Shown: one piece after another, positions 2,732-35,371 of the stretch
Numbering within the stretch: the stretch's first letter is position 1
How the letters are laid out: every line of letters begins with the position of its first letter
Origin: Candidatus Staskawiczbacteria bacterium
GTDB lineage: Bacteria; Patescibacteriota; Minisyncoccia; Minisyncoccales; Staskawiczbacteraceae
Assembly: GCA_023245195.1 (NCBI GenBank)
Contig: JAHFKU010000007.1
Location: forward strand, 1-36,078
DNA length: 36,078 nt
Direction of reading: 5' to 3'
Program-made: the position numbers and the translations under genes
The notes under the pieces: generated by a model
What the model saw: the letters and a program-made list of their open reading frames with translations, nothing else
Told to the model about the DNA's origin: nothing
Database searches by the model: none

Positions 2732-5422
2732 ATGAATCCAGGCGGAGCAAATTTTACCAATAAAGCGCAGGATGCCATTTTATCGGCCCAAATGATTGCA
2801 CAAGAAAGAGGACAGCAACAAATAGATGCCCTGCATTTGTTGTACGCTTTGCTATCCCAAGAAGGATCGATTGTTTTGACGGTGTTGCAAAAATTAGGAA
2901 CTGACATGGAAACTTTAAAGAAAAAAATAGAAAATTCTATTGCCAAAATTTCATCACTGCTGGCTCCTACCAGCTTTGGCCAGTTTTATTTAACCCAAGA
3001 TATGGCCAAGGTGCTAGACAAAGCCAGAACTGAAGCTTCCCGGATGCAAGACGAGTTTATTTCTGTTGAGCACCTCTTTTTAGCATTACTGGACACAAAA
3101 TCAACAGCTCGCGATGTGCTAACTGGTTTTGCCGGATCCAAGGATAGCAAGGAAAAATTAGATTATGATACGGTTTGGAAAACGTTATCTCAAATTCGCG
3201 GAGGCCAGCGCATTACCGATCCCGAACCCGAATCAAAATACCAGGTCATTGAAAAATACACCCGGAATTTGACCGATTTGGCCGCCGCTGGGAAAATTGA
3301 TCCAATCGTCGGCCGAGATAATGAAATCCGAAGGCTGATGCAAATTATTTCCCGCCGAACAAAAAACAATCCGGTCTTAATCGGAGAAGCCGGCGTTGGA
3401 AAAACCGCCATTGTGGAAGGATTTGCCCAAAGAATAGCCCGCGGAAACGTACCGGAATTTTTAAAAAACAAAGAAGTGATTTCCTTAGATTTGGGCGCCA
3501 TTATTGCCGGCACCAAGTATCGCGGTGAATTTGAAACCAGAATCAAGGCTTTGCTAAAAGAAATTTCGCGTTCGGCCGGCAAGTATATTTTATTTATTGA
3601 TGAATTGCACACCCTAGTGGGGGCTGGAGCCGCTGAAGGCGCCATTGACGCTTCTAATTTACTAAAGCCGGCATTGGCCCGCGGAGAATTAAAGGCCATC
3701 GGAGCTACTACCTTAAAAGAATATCAAAAATATATTGAAAAAGATTCCGCTTTGGAAAGAAGATTCCAGCCGATTTTTGTGCAAGAGCCCTCTATTGAAG
3801 ATGCTACGGCGATTTTACGGGGCATTAAAGAAAAATACGAAGTCCATCATGGGGTCAGAATAAAAGACTCGGCTATTAAGGCCGCCGTTGAATTATCAGC
3901 TCGCTATATTGCCGACCGCTTTTTGCCCGACAAAGCAGTGGATTTAATGGATGAAGCCGCTTCAGCGTTGAGGCTAGAAATTGAATCAGAACCCCAAGAA
4001 CTGGAAACCTTCCAAGAAGAAATTACTAAGCTGGAAATTGAAAAACAGGCGCTCAAAAAAGAAAAAAACTCTGAACGAAGGTTAAAGGTGATCGCCAAAG
4101 AATTGGCCGATATTAAAGAAAGTACCAAGGGCCTTCGGGCTAAGTGGGATGCGGAAAAAGAATTGATTAACAAAATAAAAGATATCCGCACGAAAATTGA
4201 CGAATTATCGTATCAAACCGAAATTGCCCAGCGTGAAGCTAATTTGGAAAAAGTGGCTGAAATAAAATATGGCAGAATTCCCCAGCTTTTAAAAGAGCAA
4301 AAACAGGTTGAGCAAAAATTAATCAAATTGCAAAAAACCCATCATTTCCTAAAAGAAGAGGTAACCCAAGAAGATGTGGCTCGGGTGGTTTCGCGCTGGA
4401 CGGGAATTCCGGTGATGAGGTTAATCACCGAAGAGGCCAAAAAGCTAGAAACCATGGAAGATGCCTTAAATAGAAGGGTGGTGGGCCAACAAGAGGCTAT
4501 TTCAGCTATTTCCCGGGCTATTAGGCGGGCGCGGGCTGGCATTTCTGAAGAAGATAAGCCCTTGGGATCATTTCTGTTTTTGGGTCCAACCGGTGTGGGA
4601 AAAACCGAGACTGCCAGGGCTCTTGGTGAGTTTTTATTTAATGATGAAAAATCTTTAATAAGGCTGGATATGTCAGAATACATGGAACGCCACACGGTTT
4701 CAAAAATTATTGGCAGTCCTCCTGGTTATGTTGGTTATGAAGAAGCCGGCCAGCTTACCGAAAAAGTAAGAAGACGGCCGTATTCGATTGTCCTTTTGGA
4801 TGAAATTGAAAAAGCTCATCCGGAAGTCTTTAATATTTTACTGCAGATTTTTGAAGACGGCCGGTTGACCGATTCAAAGGGCAGGATGGTTTCTTTTAAA
4901 AATACCATTATTATTATGACTTCTAACGTTGGGTCGGATTTTATCAATAAAATGTCGGCCATTGGTTTTTCAAGCAAGCAAGATGTGGCGGAACGCGAAT
5001 CCATGAAAGATAAAATAATGAATTCTTTAAAAGATCAATTCCGGCCGGAATTTTTAAACCGAATAGACGAAATTGTTATCTTCAATTATCTAAAAACCGA
5101 TGAAATTACAGTGATCGTGGATTTGGAATTGGAAAAAGTCCAAAAACGGCTGAAGGCAAAAGAAATAAGCATCCAAATTTCACCAAGAGCTAAGGAATTA
5201 TTGGTTCGCGAAGGGTTTGACGCCAATTTGGGTGCCCGGCCTTTAAAGAGAGTTATTCAACGGTTGATTTTGGATCCATTATCAGTAAAAATTGTGACCA
5301 ATGAAATTTCTGAAGGGTCGCGAGTATTAATTGATGAACGCGATGGCCAGATTGTGTTTGAATTGCCAAGGCTATTACCCAGGGTGGGAATGCCCGAAAA
5401 AGTTTCTTCTTCAAGGAAGTAA
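2732..5422 (+). CDS. clpB: ATP-dependent chaperone ClpB (AAA+ disaggregase)
   Basis: Clp N domain, two Walker A motifs ([18 protein letters not shown]), coiled-coil middle domain, SRWTGIPV linker. Confidence 0.93.
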
Positions 5423-5423
5423 C

Positions 5424-5599
5424 TACTTTGAATTACGAAATGCCTTCGCGGGATTTTCTCCAAATTTCAGAGCGAGAATGTGATAGAATTCTGAGGCTTA
5501 TGCAACGCATCCGCCGAAGAATTATAGCACGTTCGCAGCTGAAATTTGGAGAAAAGACCCGAAACTTGCTTTCCAAAGGGCATTTCGTAATTCAAAGTA
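5424..5599. repeat. Core-type inverted-repeat element A: 21-bp perfect outer arms (5424-5444/5579-5599) and 17-bp inner arms (5454-5470/5539-5555)
   Basis: tactttgaattacgaaatgcc / ggcatttcgtaattcaaagta; ttttctccaaatttcag / ctgaaatttggagaaaa. Confidence 0.92.
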
Positions 5600-5603
5600 A
5601 TTA

Positions 5604-5755
5604 TTCGAATTTCGGCATAGTTTTGAAAGTACCGGGCGTCAAAATTTTCCAGCGAAATTTTGCGCCGCTACACTCTCGGCAAAATCGTCGCCTTCGGGCG
5701 ACACCAAGCGATTTTGCCTTCGAGAGTTACTTTCAAAACTATGCCGAAATTCGAA
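5604..5755. repeat. Second inverted repeat A': 28-bp perfect arms (5604-5631/5728-5755) with internal hairpins
   Basis: ttcgaatttcggcatagttttgaaagta / tactttcaaaactatgccgaaattcgaa; internal gtcgcc-ttcg-ggcgac stem. Confidence 0.92.
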
Positions 5756-7784: not shown

Positions 7785-7990
7785 AATCTTGAAAATCCTG
7801 AAGTAACGGCAAGTTTCAGGTCTTTGCGCCAAATTCCAGCTGCGAATGCACTAGAATTCTTCGGTTAAGACGCGAGGCGCGAAGCGCCCCGTCTCCGGAT
7901 GCGCTGCATAAGCCTCAGAATTCTATCGGGACCCAAGGGGTACCCCCGCCGTGAAATTTGGCGCAAATCCTCTGAAAGATTTTCAAGATT
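7785..7990. repeat. Core-type inverted-repeat element B (opposite orientation to A), in the divergent promoter region
   Basis: aatcttgaaaatc (7785)/gattttcaagatt (7978); tttgcgccaaatt (7823)/aatttggcgcaaa (7955); reverse complement shares gatagaattctgaggcttatgcaRcgcatccg and ccgaagaatt.tag...ttcgcagctg with element A. Confidence 0.9.
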
Positions 7991-21417: not shown

Positions 21418-21421
21418 ATTC

Positions 21422-21507
21422 GCTACGAAATACGAATTTTTTACGAATATACGAATCAAAACGACGTTTCTCATTCGTATATTCGTATTTGATTCGTATT
21501 TCGTAGC
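21422..21507. repeat. Gap-filling inverted repeat D (ACGAATA-word type), 16 + 15 bp perfect arms
   Basis: gctacgaaatacgaat-tttt-tacgaatatacgaat ... attcgtatattcgta-tttg-attcgtatttcgtagc. Confidence 0.93.
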
Positions 21508-21514
21508 CAACAAT

Positions 21515-25578: not shown

Positions 25579-26324
25579 ACCGTAAAAAAGTCAGTGCTAT
25601 TATTCAGGCAAGAATGGGTTCTACCCGTTTGCCAAATAAAGTGTTAATGCAAATAGAGCGTAAGCCTTTGCTATGGCACATTATGCATAGGTTAGGATTT
25701 TCAAAAGAAATTCATGAAGTTATTTTAGCAATTCCCGATACCAAAGAAAATGATGTACTGGAACAATTCGCAAAACAATATAAGATAAAGTATTTTAGCG
25801 GCAGTGAAGATGATGTGCTTTCGCGGTATCATCAGGCTGCCAAAAAATTTAACTGTGAAATCGTAGTGAGAATATGTTCAGATAGGCCGGTGATTGATCC
25901 TGAAATTGTGGATATGGTCATCAAAAAGCATCTTGATGACAACGTTGATTATACGGCAAATAATTTGCAACAAACATTCCCCGTGGGACTGGAAGCAGAG
26001 GTTTTTGATAGTAGCGTACTACAAAAAGCTAACCTGGAAGCAAAAGCTTTGCATGAAAGAGAGCATGTTACCCCCTATATCTATTTACACCCTGAATTAT
26101 TCAAACTTAGAAATGTAGAGGCACAAGGCATATTGCAAAGGCCCGATATCAGATTAACGGTAGATACCAAAGAAGATTTTGAATTAGTCAGTCAAATTTA
26201 TAACCATCTTCACGCCCCTGGAAATATGTTTGGTGCAAAAGCCATTATTGATTTATTAGATAAATACCCGGATTTGAAAAAAATTAATAGTAATATCAAG
26301 CAAAAACCACTAGAAGCTGTCTAG
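25572..26324 (+). CDS. SpsF-like cytidylyltransferase (acylneuraminate cytidylyltransferase family)
   Basis: SAIIQARMGSTRLPNKVLMQIERKPLLWHIMHRL...VVRICSDRPVIDPEI. Confidence 0.9.
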   Translation: MVNRKKVSAIIQARMGSTRLPNKVLMQIERKPLLWHIMHRLGFSKEIHEVILAIPDTKENDVLEQFAKQYKIKYFSGSEDDVLSRYHQAAKKFNCEIVVRICSDRPVIDPEIVDMVIKKHLDDNVDYTANNLQQTFPVGLEAEVFDSSVLQKANLEAKALHEREHVTPYIYLHPELFKLRNVEAQGILQRPDIRLTVDTKEDFELVSQIYNHLHAPGNMFGAKAIIDLLDKYPDLKKINSNIKQKPLEAV

Positions 26325-26476
26325 GAAGTCGCTTTTGAGGATAAATTCATTTTTTCCGAGCGAAAATTTGATAGAACGACAAGGTTTACACGATAGAGTA
26401 TAAACCGCGAAGTTATAGCAAATTTGCAGCCGGAAAAAATGAATTTAGGCCAAATTGGACTTCCTAGACAGCTTCT
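26312..26476. repeat. Core-type gap-filling inverted repeat E, 19-bp outer and 17-bp inner perfect arms
   Basis: agaagctgtctaggaagtc (26312)/gacttcctagacagcttct (26458); taaattcattttttccg (26342)/cggaaaaaatgaattta (26431); core gagcgaaaatttgatagaa...aagttatagcaaatttgcag. Confidence 0.93.
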
Positions 26477-28218: not shown

Positions 28219-28830
28219 ATGATTGCAATTATAGATTATGGTTTGGGAAATTTAACCTCTGTGAAAAACGCCCTAGATTTTTTGGGTATAGAATCAGAAA
28301 TTACCAATGATATTAAAAAAATCCAAAAGGCAGATAACATCATTTTGCCCGGAGTTGGAGCATTTGGTTACGGAATGGAAAACTTAAAAAAGTTGGGTTT
28401 AGTGGAAGTTTTGAATAAAGAAGTGATAGAAAATAAAAAACCATTTTTAGGGATTTGTTTGGGGATGCAACTTATCTGCAAAAAAAGTTATGAAGAAGGC
28501 GAGTTTGAGGGTCTGGGTTGGATTGATGCAGAAGTGATAAAATTTAATGTAGAACATGAAAAATTACTGGTTCCTCATGTGGGCTGGAATGAAGTTGCCT
28601 GTAACCTTGAGTCAACTATTTTACAGGGAGGCAATACAGAGCAAACATTTTATTTTGTGCATAGTTATTATCCGGATGTAAAAGATAAAAGCATTGTTAT
28701 GGGATGGTGTAATTATGGAGTAGTGTTTCCAGCCATTTTGCAAAAAGATAATATATTTGCCGTGCAGTTCCATCCGGAAAAAAGCCAGACGGAGGGATTG
28801 GAGATACTAAGGAAATTCGAGTCTCTTTAA
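28219..28830 (+). CDS. hisH: HisH-family glutamine amidotransferase subunit (glycan acetamidino modification)
   Basis: IIDYGLGNLTSVKNALDFLG...LPGVGAFGYGM...FLGICLGMQLI...AVQFHPEKSQTEGLEIL. Confidence 0.92.
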   Translation: MIAIIDYGLGNLTSVKNALDFLGIESEITNDIKKIQKADNIILPGVGAFGYGMENLKKLGLVEVLNKEVIENKKPFLGICLGMQLICKKSYEEGEFEGLGWIDAEVIKFNVEHEKLLVPHVGWNEVACNLESTILQGGNTEQTFYFVHSYYPDVKDKSIVMGWCNYGVVFPAILQKDNIFAVQFHPEKSQTEGLEILRKFESL

Positions 28831-28833
28831 GAG

Positions 28834-29086
28834 ACGAGAACCCCGCCCCCTATGCCAATGTTCTATGTGTATATCTTAAAAATTAATAATGAATTTTATA
28901 TTGGATATACGGAAGATTTGAAAAGGAGATTTCAACAACATAAAGCTAAAGGCAAAGTAGAGTTGGTTTACTATGAGGCATATGTATTAAAAAAATCAGC
29001 TACACAAAGGGAGAAAAAATTAAAACATTATGGTAGCGCTTGGCGTGCTCTCAAGAAAAGAATAGCTTAGGGGGCGGGGTGCTCGT
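28834..29086. mobile_element. 253-bp inverted-repeat-bounded element carrying a GIY-YIG ORF, 21-bp terminal inverted repeats (19/21)
   Basis: acgagaaccccgccccctatg (28834-28854) versus reverse complement of 29066-29086 acgagcaccccgccccctaag. Confidence 0.72.
28852..29070 (+). CDS. Single-domain GIY-YIG nuclease (UPF0213/YhbQ-like), 72 aa
   Basis: MFYVYILKINNEFYIGYTEDLKRRFQQHKAKGKVELVYYEAYVLKKSATQREKKLKHY. Confidence 0.9.
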   Translation: MPMFYVYILKINNEFYIGYTEDLKRRFQQHKAKGKVELVYYEAYVLKKSATQREKKLKHYGSAWRALKKRIA

Positions 29087-29096
29087 AAAAACTCAC

Positions 29097-29903
29097 ATGC
29101 TTAAAAAACGTCTCATTCCCTGCTTATTTTTGAAAAATGGACATTTGGTAAGAAGTGAACACTTTTCCTATCATCAATTATTGGGAGATCCGATTGCTCA
29201 AGTTGAAAGGATTAATTCCTGGTCCGCAGACGAATTAATCTATATTAATATCAGCAATGATGAGCATTATGATCTGCGGCGCGACGATAAAAAAACAAAA
29301 AGCATTGATAACATTTATGATATTATTGAAAGAGTTTCAAAAACCTGTTTTATTCCGCTTACCTTCGGAGGTAATATAAAAACGATAGAAGATATTAGGG
29401 AAAGGTTAAAAAGGGGAGCAGATAAGGTTGTTATTAATACGGCCGCATTTGAAAATCCGGATTTTATCAGCGAAGGCGCAAAAGTGTTTGGCAGGCAATG
29501 CATTGTTGTTGGAATTGATGTAAAAATCAAATCTAATAAAGAATACGAAGTGTATGTGGAGCATGGTAAAAAAGCCACCGGTTTGCACCCTGTAGCATGG
29601 GCCAAGGAAGTTGAAAAAAAGGGTGCCGGGGAGATTTTTTTGAATTCAATAGATAGAGATGGCACTGCTAAAGGATATGATATACCATTAATTACCATGG
29701 TGGTTGATGCAGTATCAGTACCGGTTATTGCCTGTGGCGGAGTGGGGATATTTGAGCACTTTGTTGATGGCATTAAAGAAGGTGGAGCGAGCGCGGTATC
29801 TGCGGGTAATATCTTTAATTTTACCGAAAATAGTGTTATTGAAGCTAAGAAAGTATTAAAAAATGCGGGTATCAATATTCGGCCCGTGATTAAAATCAAA
29901 TAA
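29097..29903 (+). CDS. hisF: HisF2/AglZ/WbuZ-type amidation-associated cyclase-like protein
   Basis: MLKKRLIPCLFLKNGHLVRSEHF...FGGNIKTIEDIRERLKRGADKVVINTAA...GEIFLNSIDRDGTAKGYD; start reset from 29040. Confidence 0.9.
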   Translation: MLKKRLIPCLFLKNGHLVRSEHFSYHQLLGDPIAQVERINSWSADELIYINISNDEHYDLRRDDKKTKSIDNIYDIIERVSKTCFIPLTFGGNIKTIEDIRERLKRGADKVVINTAAFENPDFISEGAKVFGRQCIVVGIDVKIKSNKEYEVYVEHGKKATGLHPVAWAKEVEKKGAGEIFLNSIDRDGTAKGYDIPLITMVVDAVSVPVIACGGVGIFEHFVDGIKEGGASAVSAGNIFNFTENSVIEAKKVLKNAGINIRPVIKIK

Positions 29904-32213: not shown

Positions 32214-33723
32214 ATTATTTATGTCCAGAAAAAGGGTTATCACTAATAACATCAAGTATAATATTGCAAGCCAGATAGTCGGTTTTGTTGTGGGACTAAT
32301 GTTGTTTCCCTTCATTGTTTCCCATGTTGGAAAGGAAGTATACGGCGCTTATTTATTAGTGACCACCTGCATAGGATATTTCGGGGTGCTTGATTTTGGG
32401 GTAGGGGCTGCCATTCCAAAATACATAGCTGAATTTACGGGCAAGAATGATCTTAAGGGGGCGGGAAAAATCATCAATTCTTCGCTGTTTTTTTATACCA
32501 TTGTGGGCATTTTTGTGGCCATTTGTCTTGTGATTTTGTCTTTTTGTTTTGACCGCATCTTTCATATATCTTCTGGCGATGTGGCAGTTATGCGCCAGCT
32601 CTTTTGGGTGGCGGCCTTGGCTTCGCTGTTTATTTGGCCTGGCAGGACTTTTGATAGTGTTTTATATGGATTGCAGCGATTTGATTGGCTGGCAATTAGT
32701 AATATTGTAGCAACCATTCTGACTGGTATTTCTGCTTATTTCATTTTTACGTATCATTTGGGAATGGTTTGGTTTGTGGCCCTGTTTTATGTTTTTATTA
32801 TATTGCGCTGTTTGGTGTCTTATATTATCGTAAGATACCACATATTAAAAACACCCATTCCTTTCCCATATTTTGATAAAGAAACCTCTAAAATGATTTT
32901 TGGTTTCAGTTTTTTCTTATTCTTTTCCAGTTTATTATCATTATTCATTTTTAATTTTGATAGCTTTGTGATTGGAGCTTTCGCCTCGGTTTCAGCGGTT
33001 ACCTTGTATAGCGTGGGATATAGTTTACAAAATGGATTTAGGTCAATTAACAGTTTTATCATCGGGCCGATTTTACCGGCCAGTGCGAAGCTCGAAGGGG
33101 AACAAAAAGAGGCTTTGCAAAAAGAGCTGTTATTTAAGGGAACGAAATATGTGACCATGATTTTTGTTCCCGGAGTCATTATTACCATTATCTTTGCCAA
33201 ACTGTTTATCAACAATTGGATGGGGCCCGGTTTTGAGGAGAGTATTTTACCGGCCCAGGTGTTGATAGCTTTTTGGATATTTGGCAACACGATAAATGTT
33301 GGCGCAAGCTTGGCGACAGCCAAGGGGCACGTGAAAGCATTCTTTAAGATTAATCTTTTAAATGCCCTATTAAATGTTGGTTTAAGTTTAGTTTTAGTTA
33401 GGCCGTTGGGAATTTTGGGGGTTGTTTTGGGAACTACGATTCCCATGATTTTAATTGACTTTTCTTTATCTTTGTATCAAATAGTAACAATCATGAAAGT
33501 AAGTTTTAAAGATTTTTTCAATGTAGCCATTAAAAAAAATCTTTTGGTTTACCTTTTTACTATCATAGTATCGGTGGCGGCTTTAAAAGTGTTCCAGCCG
33601 GCTAATGTTTTTTTGACGATACTTCAAATGGGCATAGTATATTCAATAGTAATGTTGGGCAGTTTTTATCTTTTTTTGTCTCCAAAAGAGCGAGAGGAGG
33701 TACTGTTTATGGTTAAATTTTAA
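32188..33723 (+). CDS. Polysaccharide flippase (Wzx-like), start possibly 32221
   Basis: Multi-TM; IVGFVVGLMLFPFIVSHVGKEVYGAYLLVTTCIGYFGVLDFGVGAAIPKYIAEF; ATG 32188 lies within a hairpin, ATG 32221 lies 7 nt beyond it. Confidence 0.87.
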   Translation: MKTFRDLKLLFMSRKRVITNNIKYNIASQIVGFVVGLMLFPFIVSHVGKEVYGAYLLVTTCIGYFGVLDFGVGAAIPKYIAEFTGKNDLKGAGKIINSSLFFYTIVGIFVAICLVILSFCFDRIFHISSGDVAVMRQLFWVAALASLFIWPGRTFDSVLYGLQRFDWLAISNIVATILTGISAYFIFTYHLGMVWFVALFYVFIILRCLVSYIIVRYHILKTPIPFPYFDKETSKMIFGFSFFLFFSSLLSLFIFNFDSFVIGAFASVSAVTLYSVGYSLQNGFRSINSFIIGPILPASAKLEGEQKEALQKELLFKGTKYVTMIFVPGVIITIIFAKLFINNWMGPGFEESILPAQVLIAFWIFGNTINVGASLATAKGHVKAFFKINLLNALLNVGLSLVLVRPLGILGVVLGTTIPMILIDFSLSLYQIVTIMKVSFKDFFNVAIKKNLLVYLFTIIVSVAALKVFQPANVFLTILQMGIVYSIVMLGSFYLFLSPKEREEVLFMVKF

Positions 33724-33894
33724 AAACGTGAATCTTTAAACCCTTTCTAGGTATTTTCTTCAAATTTGAAGGCGAAAATGTGATAGAATTTTAAAATATA
33801 GCAAGCTACATTTTAAAATTATTGCACATTTGTAGATCAAATTTGAAGAAAAGACCTGAAGTGCTTTTTATATGGGGGTTTAAGATTCACGTTT
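33724..33894. repeat. Core-type gap-filling inverted repeat F
   Basis: aaacgtgaatctttaaaccc (33724)/gggtttaagattcacgttt (33876); ttttcttcaaatttga (33754)/tcaaatttgaagaaaa (33837); core aggcgaaaatgtgatagaat...aattattgcacatttgtag. Confidence 0.93.
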
Positions 33895-35246: not shown

Positions 35247-35371
35247 TCACGAATATACGAATCTAGAACAATATACAAATGTTACAAATATACAAATCCC
35301 GACGGTCGGACACATTCGTATATTGGTAATATTTGTATATTTGATCGTATTGGTATATTCGTGACTACTCC
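35240..35371. repeat. Gap-filling inverted repeat G (ACGAATA-word type)
   Basis: ggagtaatcacgaatata (35240)/tatattcgtgactactcc (35354), 17/18; inner acaaatatacaaat-type arms; shares acgaatatacgaatc with element D. Confidence 0.88.

Follow-up and report, generated by a model that had tools for sequence, protein, structure and literature searches.

A 253-bp unit with a lone GIY-YIG ORF between terminal inverted repeats in a Staskawiczbacteria genome, probably one of a family of minute mobile elements

GIY-YIG homing endonucleases are well known, and stand-alone representatives such as those of the I-TevI and Seg types share with the elements described here a nuclease domain and selfish spread into conserved sites, whereas our elements lack a DNA-binding module and carry inverted repeats and target duplications in place of flank-homology homing. 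Intervening sequences of the S23 type (23S_rRNA_IVP) also place an ORF between inverted repeats, sit at rRNA hairpin tips (e.g., helix 25) and spread horizontally, but their ORF is unrelated (a four-helix S23 protein rather than GIY-YIG), and GIY-YIG elements additionally use start codons, tRNA, RNase P and tmRNA sites, with the copy studied here lying between protein genes. IS elements and MITEs are comparable in their inverted repeats, 4-5-bp duplications and ORF-less derivatives, yet GIY-YIG units encode no DDE, HUH, serine or tyrosine recombinase and the inner part of their repeat is specific to each element. The closest folds to the protein, UPF0213 (BH0048, PDB 1zg2) and the branched-DNA nuclease SLX1, belong to cellular proteins not described as parts of inverted-repeat elements. 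The nearest precedent is the work of Tsurumaki et al. 2024 (PMC11270868), who reported GIY-YIG ORFs in non-intron inserts of CPR rRNA genes and placed them outside homing. Those inserts have the same domain, come from the same organisms and lie outside introns in 16S/23S genes; that study covers rRNA genes only, whereas most copies here are outside rRNA and come with inverted repeats and target duplications, and a text search of the article returned neither "inverted repeat" nor "hairpin". Our search of the open-access literature found no description of such elements, so that a widespread family of minimal nuclease-only elements has apparently gone undescribed.

The window, by which we mean the whole 36,078-nucleotide stretch analyzed (Candidatus Staskawiczbacteria bacterium, contig JAHFKU010000007.1), contains one such unit, with the following features:

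28219..28830, + strand: upstream flanking gene, HisH/WbuY-like glutaminase (host, outside the element; TIGR01855, with WbuX further along the operon)
28831..28839, + strand: imperfect outward continuation of the left arm, GAGACGAGA; the repeat takes in its final six bases; not matched in the L080 empty site
28834..28854, + strand: left terminal inverted repeat, ACGAGAACCCCGCCCCCTATG; holds the ORF start codon; 19/21 against the right arm
28852..29070, + strand: ORF of the predicted 72-aa single-domain GIY-YIG nuclease
29066..29086, - strand: right terminal inverted repeat, reverse complement ACGAGCACCCCGCCCCCTAAG; holds the ORF stop codon (TAG)
29080..29094, + strand: imperfect outward continuation of the right arm, TGCTCGTAAAAACTC; not matched in the L080 empty site
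29097..29903, + strand: downstream flanking gene, HisF2/WbuZ-like synthase (host, outside the element; best match WbuZ TIGR03572, E 4e-79)

The first-pass annotation had described a 253-bp unit with 21-bp ends that begins 3 nt after the upstream stop, finishes 10 nt before the downstream ATG and contains only a 72-aa GIY-YIG domain with its start codon in the left repeat, and the sequence agrees with this description in coordinates, identity, spacing and content. The 21-bp repeats are identical at 19 positions and mismatched at two, with three bases (GAG) separating the left repeat from the HisH-like stop at 28830 and ten (AAAAACTCAC) separating the right repeat from the HisF-like ATG at 29097. 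The ORF is intact, its TAG stop falls within the right repeat just as its start falls within the left, and the unit encodes no recombinase of a known transposase family, GIY-YIG being its sole ORF. An Rfam scan of 28700-29250 up to E = 1 gave zero matches, that is, no known RNA family and no intron RNA around the ORF. TGCTC-like outer flanks like those of the window copy also occur in relatives L010-L014, L018, L142, L155 and L208; the idea that this GCTC-type flank is a free-standing host repeat was rejected, as clear ORF-less copies of it were absent from the fetched loci.

Evaluating the 72-aa product, we found a match to PF01541 (E 1.4e-9; 38.5 bits against a curated cut-off of 22.6), with residues Y7, Y16, G18, R26, H30 and E54 invariant across 29 aligned members and the catalytic Tyr, Arg and Glu conserved. 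Its AlphaFold model (pLDDT 90) retrieved UPF0213 at rank 1 in Foldseek, followed by SLX1, and the family profile matched UPF0213 (1zg2) at E 5e-13. The homing-endonuclease profile TIGR01453 reached only 22.8 bits against a cut-off of 56.05, covering residues 4-36 of 72 and no DNA-binding part. The PHROG matches were homing endonucleases. Synonymous changes dominate between the window ORF and its nearest relative (L008; dN/dS 0.07), and a dN/dS of 0.08 separates two copies within one genome (L156 and L157), values that place the nuclease under purifying selection. Elsewhere in the window, positions 1286-2629 on the minus strand encode a 447-aa UvrC-like protein that has GIY-YIG, UVR and UvrC RNase H domains and is shorter than usual UvrC.

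The neighbors had been read as hisH and hisF, which did not hold: the HisF-like protein matches WbuZ best and the next gene is WbuX (TIGR03573), so that a histidine biosynthesis context was rejected in favor of WbuY/WbuZ/WbuX-like sugar-amidation genes, set in a locus of NeuB, cytidylyltransferase and glycosyltransferase genes. Comparison of this junction among relatives, as the annotation had proposed, revealed an empty site in G013 (L080; same family, other genus), where the HisH-like protein is 85% identical and the sequence reads AGT TAA TC ATG, with two bases between stop and start and no element. A same-genus genome (L079) holds the element at the same WbuY-WbuZ place, and the flanks of L008 are the same as those of the window. 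The empty site also lacks any match to the ~9 nt left and the 14-16 nt right of the CCCCG core, so that the insertion was probably slightly larger than 253 bp.

A protein search returned 70 loci in other genomes, to which further loci were later added, and a profile search placed members in 313 of 384 genomes of the class, with up to 14 per genome; most genomes sampled are metagenome assemblies. Among the 174 ORFs amenable to scoring for a closely enclosing repeat pair (match +1, mismatch -1.5, threshold at least 12), 120 had strong inverted repeats, as compared to 1.4% when arms were mispaired between elements and 1 of 370 other ORFs of 60-130 aa in the fetched loci, leaving about 30% of family ORFs without a detectable inverted repeat. 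Because a score this high is so rare among other ORFs of that size, and because the window unit as RNA folds at z = -4.2 relative to shuffles, the window unit lies beyond chance. The elements are mostly ~240-330 bp long, and those with inverted repeats are found in rRNA in 12 of 120 cases and outside RNA genes in ~70%. Across the family the outer ends begin with a CCCC-type start, commonly followed by NCAC or GCCC, while the inner part of the repeat differs between elements and matches within each one. The two arms tend to change in concert: in pairs of related elements (not independent of each other), 1357 columns had changed identically in both arms versus 758 in one arm. A search of the 787-kb genome for further repeat copies, also proposed beforehand, located the 12-bp repeat core CCCCGCCCCCTA at a single site, though two ORF-less units with CCCC-type ends were found. 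The repeat pair is thus literally unique here, but since the inner repeat is element-specific throughout the family, this uniqueness does not refute mobility. In a protein tree of 86 columns, mostly unresolved, insertion site types cluster yet switch often, and no relative turned up when viral contigs were scanned once with one short peptide pattern, a weak test.

Movement is recorded most directly in relatives of the window copy. Of 119 elements, 40 are immediately flanked by perfect direct repeats of 4 bp or longer, compared with a mean of 3.3 and a maximum of 10 in 1000 shuffles, and these 40 are distributed as 30 of 84 non-RNA sites, 10 of 14 tRNA genes and none of the 21 scored elements in rRNA and RNase P genes, the last of which may for this reason arise or evolve differently. 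One duplication was compared with empty sites: element L129 has TGTG on either side in a TTGTGGATAAC context, while congeneric L217 (TTGTGGATAAC) and L215 (TGTGGATAAC) have TGTG once and lack the element. Two copies ~10 kb apart in one genome (L156/L157) are 94.5% identical over 309 bp with homology stopping exactly at the repeat ends, unrelated flanks and different duplications (TGTG and TAAG), so that the terminal inverted repeats mark the exact ends of the mobile unit; L125 and L160 form a second such intragenomic pair (87%). These relatives insert as exact-ended units, move within a genome and keep their nuclease under purifying selection. The proposal of a minimal mobile element is well supported by the relatives through the empty site, the target duplications and the end-to-end intragenomic copies. 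Because the window copy has no clean target duplication and is single in its genome, we infer its own mobility from the empty site and from the family. In our judgment the window unit is likely to belong to such a family, its members being minute mobile elements composed of a single GIY-YIG ORF between perfect or near-perfect terminal inverted repeats, with the nuclease acting as mobilizer.

The insertion sites include gene starts and essential RNA genes. Many family copies lie exactly at the next gene's start codon, which in 12 non-RNA elements spans the end of the right repeat (offset -2), and typical duplications are TGAA (from ATGAA) or, at overlapping stop/start sites, TATGA; duplication and element bases together preserve the start codon, and at overlapping sites the upstream stop as well, leaving both genes intact. 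TTGA(C) is another recurrent target. The usual duplication is 4-5 bp, reaching 9 bp or more in tRNA 5' ends; there the right repeat runs into the beginning of the tRNA, and duplications extend to 9 bp (GCCGTTAGC in L030). The repeats occupy hairpin tips and prolong the host stem in genes for 23S/16S rRNA, tRNA and RNase P (P3 and P12), and in tmRNA (L061) the element sits at the 5' end. DNA hairpins as general targets were rejected: joined non-RNA flanks pair no better than mispaired ones (median 10 spanning pairs in both), so hairpin targeting would apply at most to RNA genes. Several further placements were observed. Elements L129 and L156, from different families of the class, are both inserted at a DnaA-box-like TGTGGATAA with a TGTG duplication each. 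At L192:1050-1560 a GIY-YIG ORF without inverted repeats lies between decayed and intact tRNA-Tyr copies, with similar neighborhoods at L056, L058, L063 and L071, and further GIY-YIG ORFs lacking repeats immediately precede tRNA-Glu, in some cases behind tRNA-like debris. Two 23S rRNA loci of an isolate of Lagierella massiliensis (L025, L065) contain two different GIY-YIG inserts each, one near E. coli 23S positions 533-560 and the other near 1854-1889. In Scalindua (L051, L054, L060) a GIY-YIG element is nested in a gene that reads as an S23 protein and is bounded by GTAGAGAGTAG-type inverted repeats, whose ends coincide with the limits of paralogue homology. Finally, L068:1754-4186 holds at least six tandem copies of a 357-bp unit including the GIY-YIG ORF near a contig end, either an amplification or an assembly artefact.

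The alternative that survives best, though we regard it as unlikely, is that these are RNA-level intervening sequences whose repeats are kept only for hairpin folding (perhaps cut by RNase III) and which spread by homologous recombination or homing. Many sites are indeed hairpin tips of 16S/23S, RNase P and tRNA genes, and arm mismatches read as sense RNA favor G-U over A-C by 62 to 26 (p = 1.6e-4), a split of 34 to 10 in RNA-gene hosts. However, most inverted-repeat elements (~70%) lie elsewhere and there show only a weak excess (28 to 16), target duplications occur at non-RNA sites, and one RNase P insertion (L161) is antisense to the ORF. Because the G-U excess resides mainly in RNA-gene hosts, pairing of the RNA matters there, and insertion at the DNA level is needed for the rest.

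Units without an ORF bear on what moves the family. We located the ORF-less pattern CCCCNCACC-N80-110-GGTGNGGGG 132 times, in 54 of 286 genomes, compared with once for a reversed-pattern control, and the two in the window's genome are at C19:5246-5355 and C32:36974-37071. One complete tRNA gene is present in 22 of 60 fetched ORF-less units, and the flanks of such cassettes are often two pieces of a broken tRNA resembling the cargo, with the best tRNA breaks mostly in the D-, anticodon or T-loop region. A cassette's own flanks rank first of 21 in 9 of 21 cases (1 expected, p = 2e-7, in a rank test that is approximate as tRNAs are alike). Clear cognate cassettes are L272 (tRNA-Gln), L279 (tRNA-Val) and L248 (tRNA-Arg), and a non-cognate case (L258) carries tRNA-Met beside a piece reading like another tRNA. 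The unit at C19:5246-5355 (L276, outside the window) is a 112-bp ORF-less unit with CCCC-type inverted repeats around an intact tRNA-Arg(tcg). The sequences on either side of it look like the two pieces of a decayed tRNA-Arg that was broken close to the D-loop, but they rank only third. Shared ends suggest that the GIY-YIG enzyme may move these ORF-less units. At L033:2286-2765 an RNase P RNA gene has several extra hairpins ending CCCCCACTTA, with ends as in the adjoining GIY-YIG element, which looks like repeated insertion of ORF-less derivatives.

Within the window itself, long A+T-rich hairpins lie at 5405-5640, 7795-7990, 26312-26476 and 33715-33860, which have motifs such as GAGCGARAATKTGATAGAA in common, and also at 21419-21510 and 35270-35341, several of them at gene junctions. 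They are a repeat family other than the GIY-YIG element, and as they share no ends with it we rejected them as its derivatives. The first-pass speculation that GIY-YIG enzymes mobilize or create hairpin elements therefore survives in part: ORF-less units with CCCC-type ends do exist, two of them in this genome, but the window hairpins have different ends. The junction placement rule proposed for both is likewise real for the family, while the window's ORF-less hairpins, with A+T-rich ends, lie outside that family.

A second and somewhat less probable alternative holds that these are non-autonomous inverted-repeat units moved in trans by another host enzyme, with the GIY-YIG ORF a passenger or accessory benefit. 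That ORF-less and tRNA-carrying units have the same ends, and that the unit encodes no recombinase, would fit; against this, the nuclease is the only ORF and is under strong purifying selection even between two same-genome copies, and the terminal sequences vary more than a sequence-specific trans transposase would tolerate. It is highly improbable that the unit is an ordinary stand-alone homing endonuclease gene bounded by chance by terminator-like hairpins: such genes are familiar and the PHROG matches point to them, but the DNA-binding domain and intron are absent, the repeats hug the ORF at both ends with start and stop codons inside in a way control ORFs do not, the sites are diverse rather than one homing allele, and L156/L157 have exact ends in common.

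We return to the nuclease as the presumed mobilizing enzyme, probably the driver of mobility. In such a mechanism the nuclease would make a staggered cut at a conserved target (a start codon, a TTGAC-like site, a tRNA 5' end or the loop of a structured-RNA gene), and the element would be joined or copied into the break during repair. The repeats would be recognized as a hairpin or cruciform and not via their inner sequence, which is reasonable given the variable inner repeats and the SLX1-like fold. Hosts would tolerate insertion because target duplication rebuilds the start codon or the end of the tRNA, or, in RNA genes, because pairing of the repeats only extends a hairpin that is already there; in the window, the insertion would have fallen among the few bases separating the WbuY-like stop from the WbuZ-like start. 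Known GIY-YIG homing enzymes leave short 3' overhangs, so a 4-bp stagger would be unusual. Taken further, and with about even chances in our estimation, a lone GIY-YIG nuclease could stand in for the transposase in these elements, which would then form a new class. The nuclease would recognize the ends by their hairpin form, enter conserved, essential sites in a way that the host survives, and drive ORF-less satellites. Some of these satellites would split a tRNA at a loop but bring along an intact one, often of the same kind, such that the host depends on the element; a tRNA-Arg cassette of this sort is present in the window's genome.

If true, few autonomous mobile elements with inverted repeats would be known that are as small, and movement resembling transposition would here run on a homing-type nuclease and not on a transposase. 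Such elements would account for the GIY-YIG inserts of CPR rRNA genes that homing had not covered, for many of the tiny GIY-YIG ORFs dispersed across CPR genomes, and for hairpins inserted into the genes of RNase P, tmRNA and tRNAs. Testing may be possible in Lagierella massiliensis, a cultured carrier with elements in its 23S rRNA genes, and the tRNA-carrying satellites resemble a natural break-and-rescue strategy.
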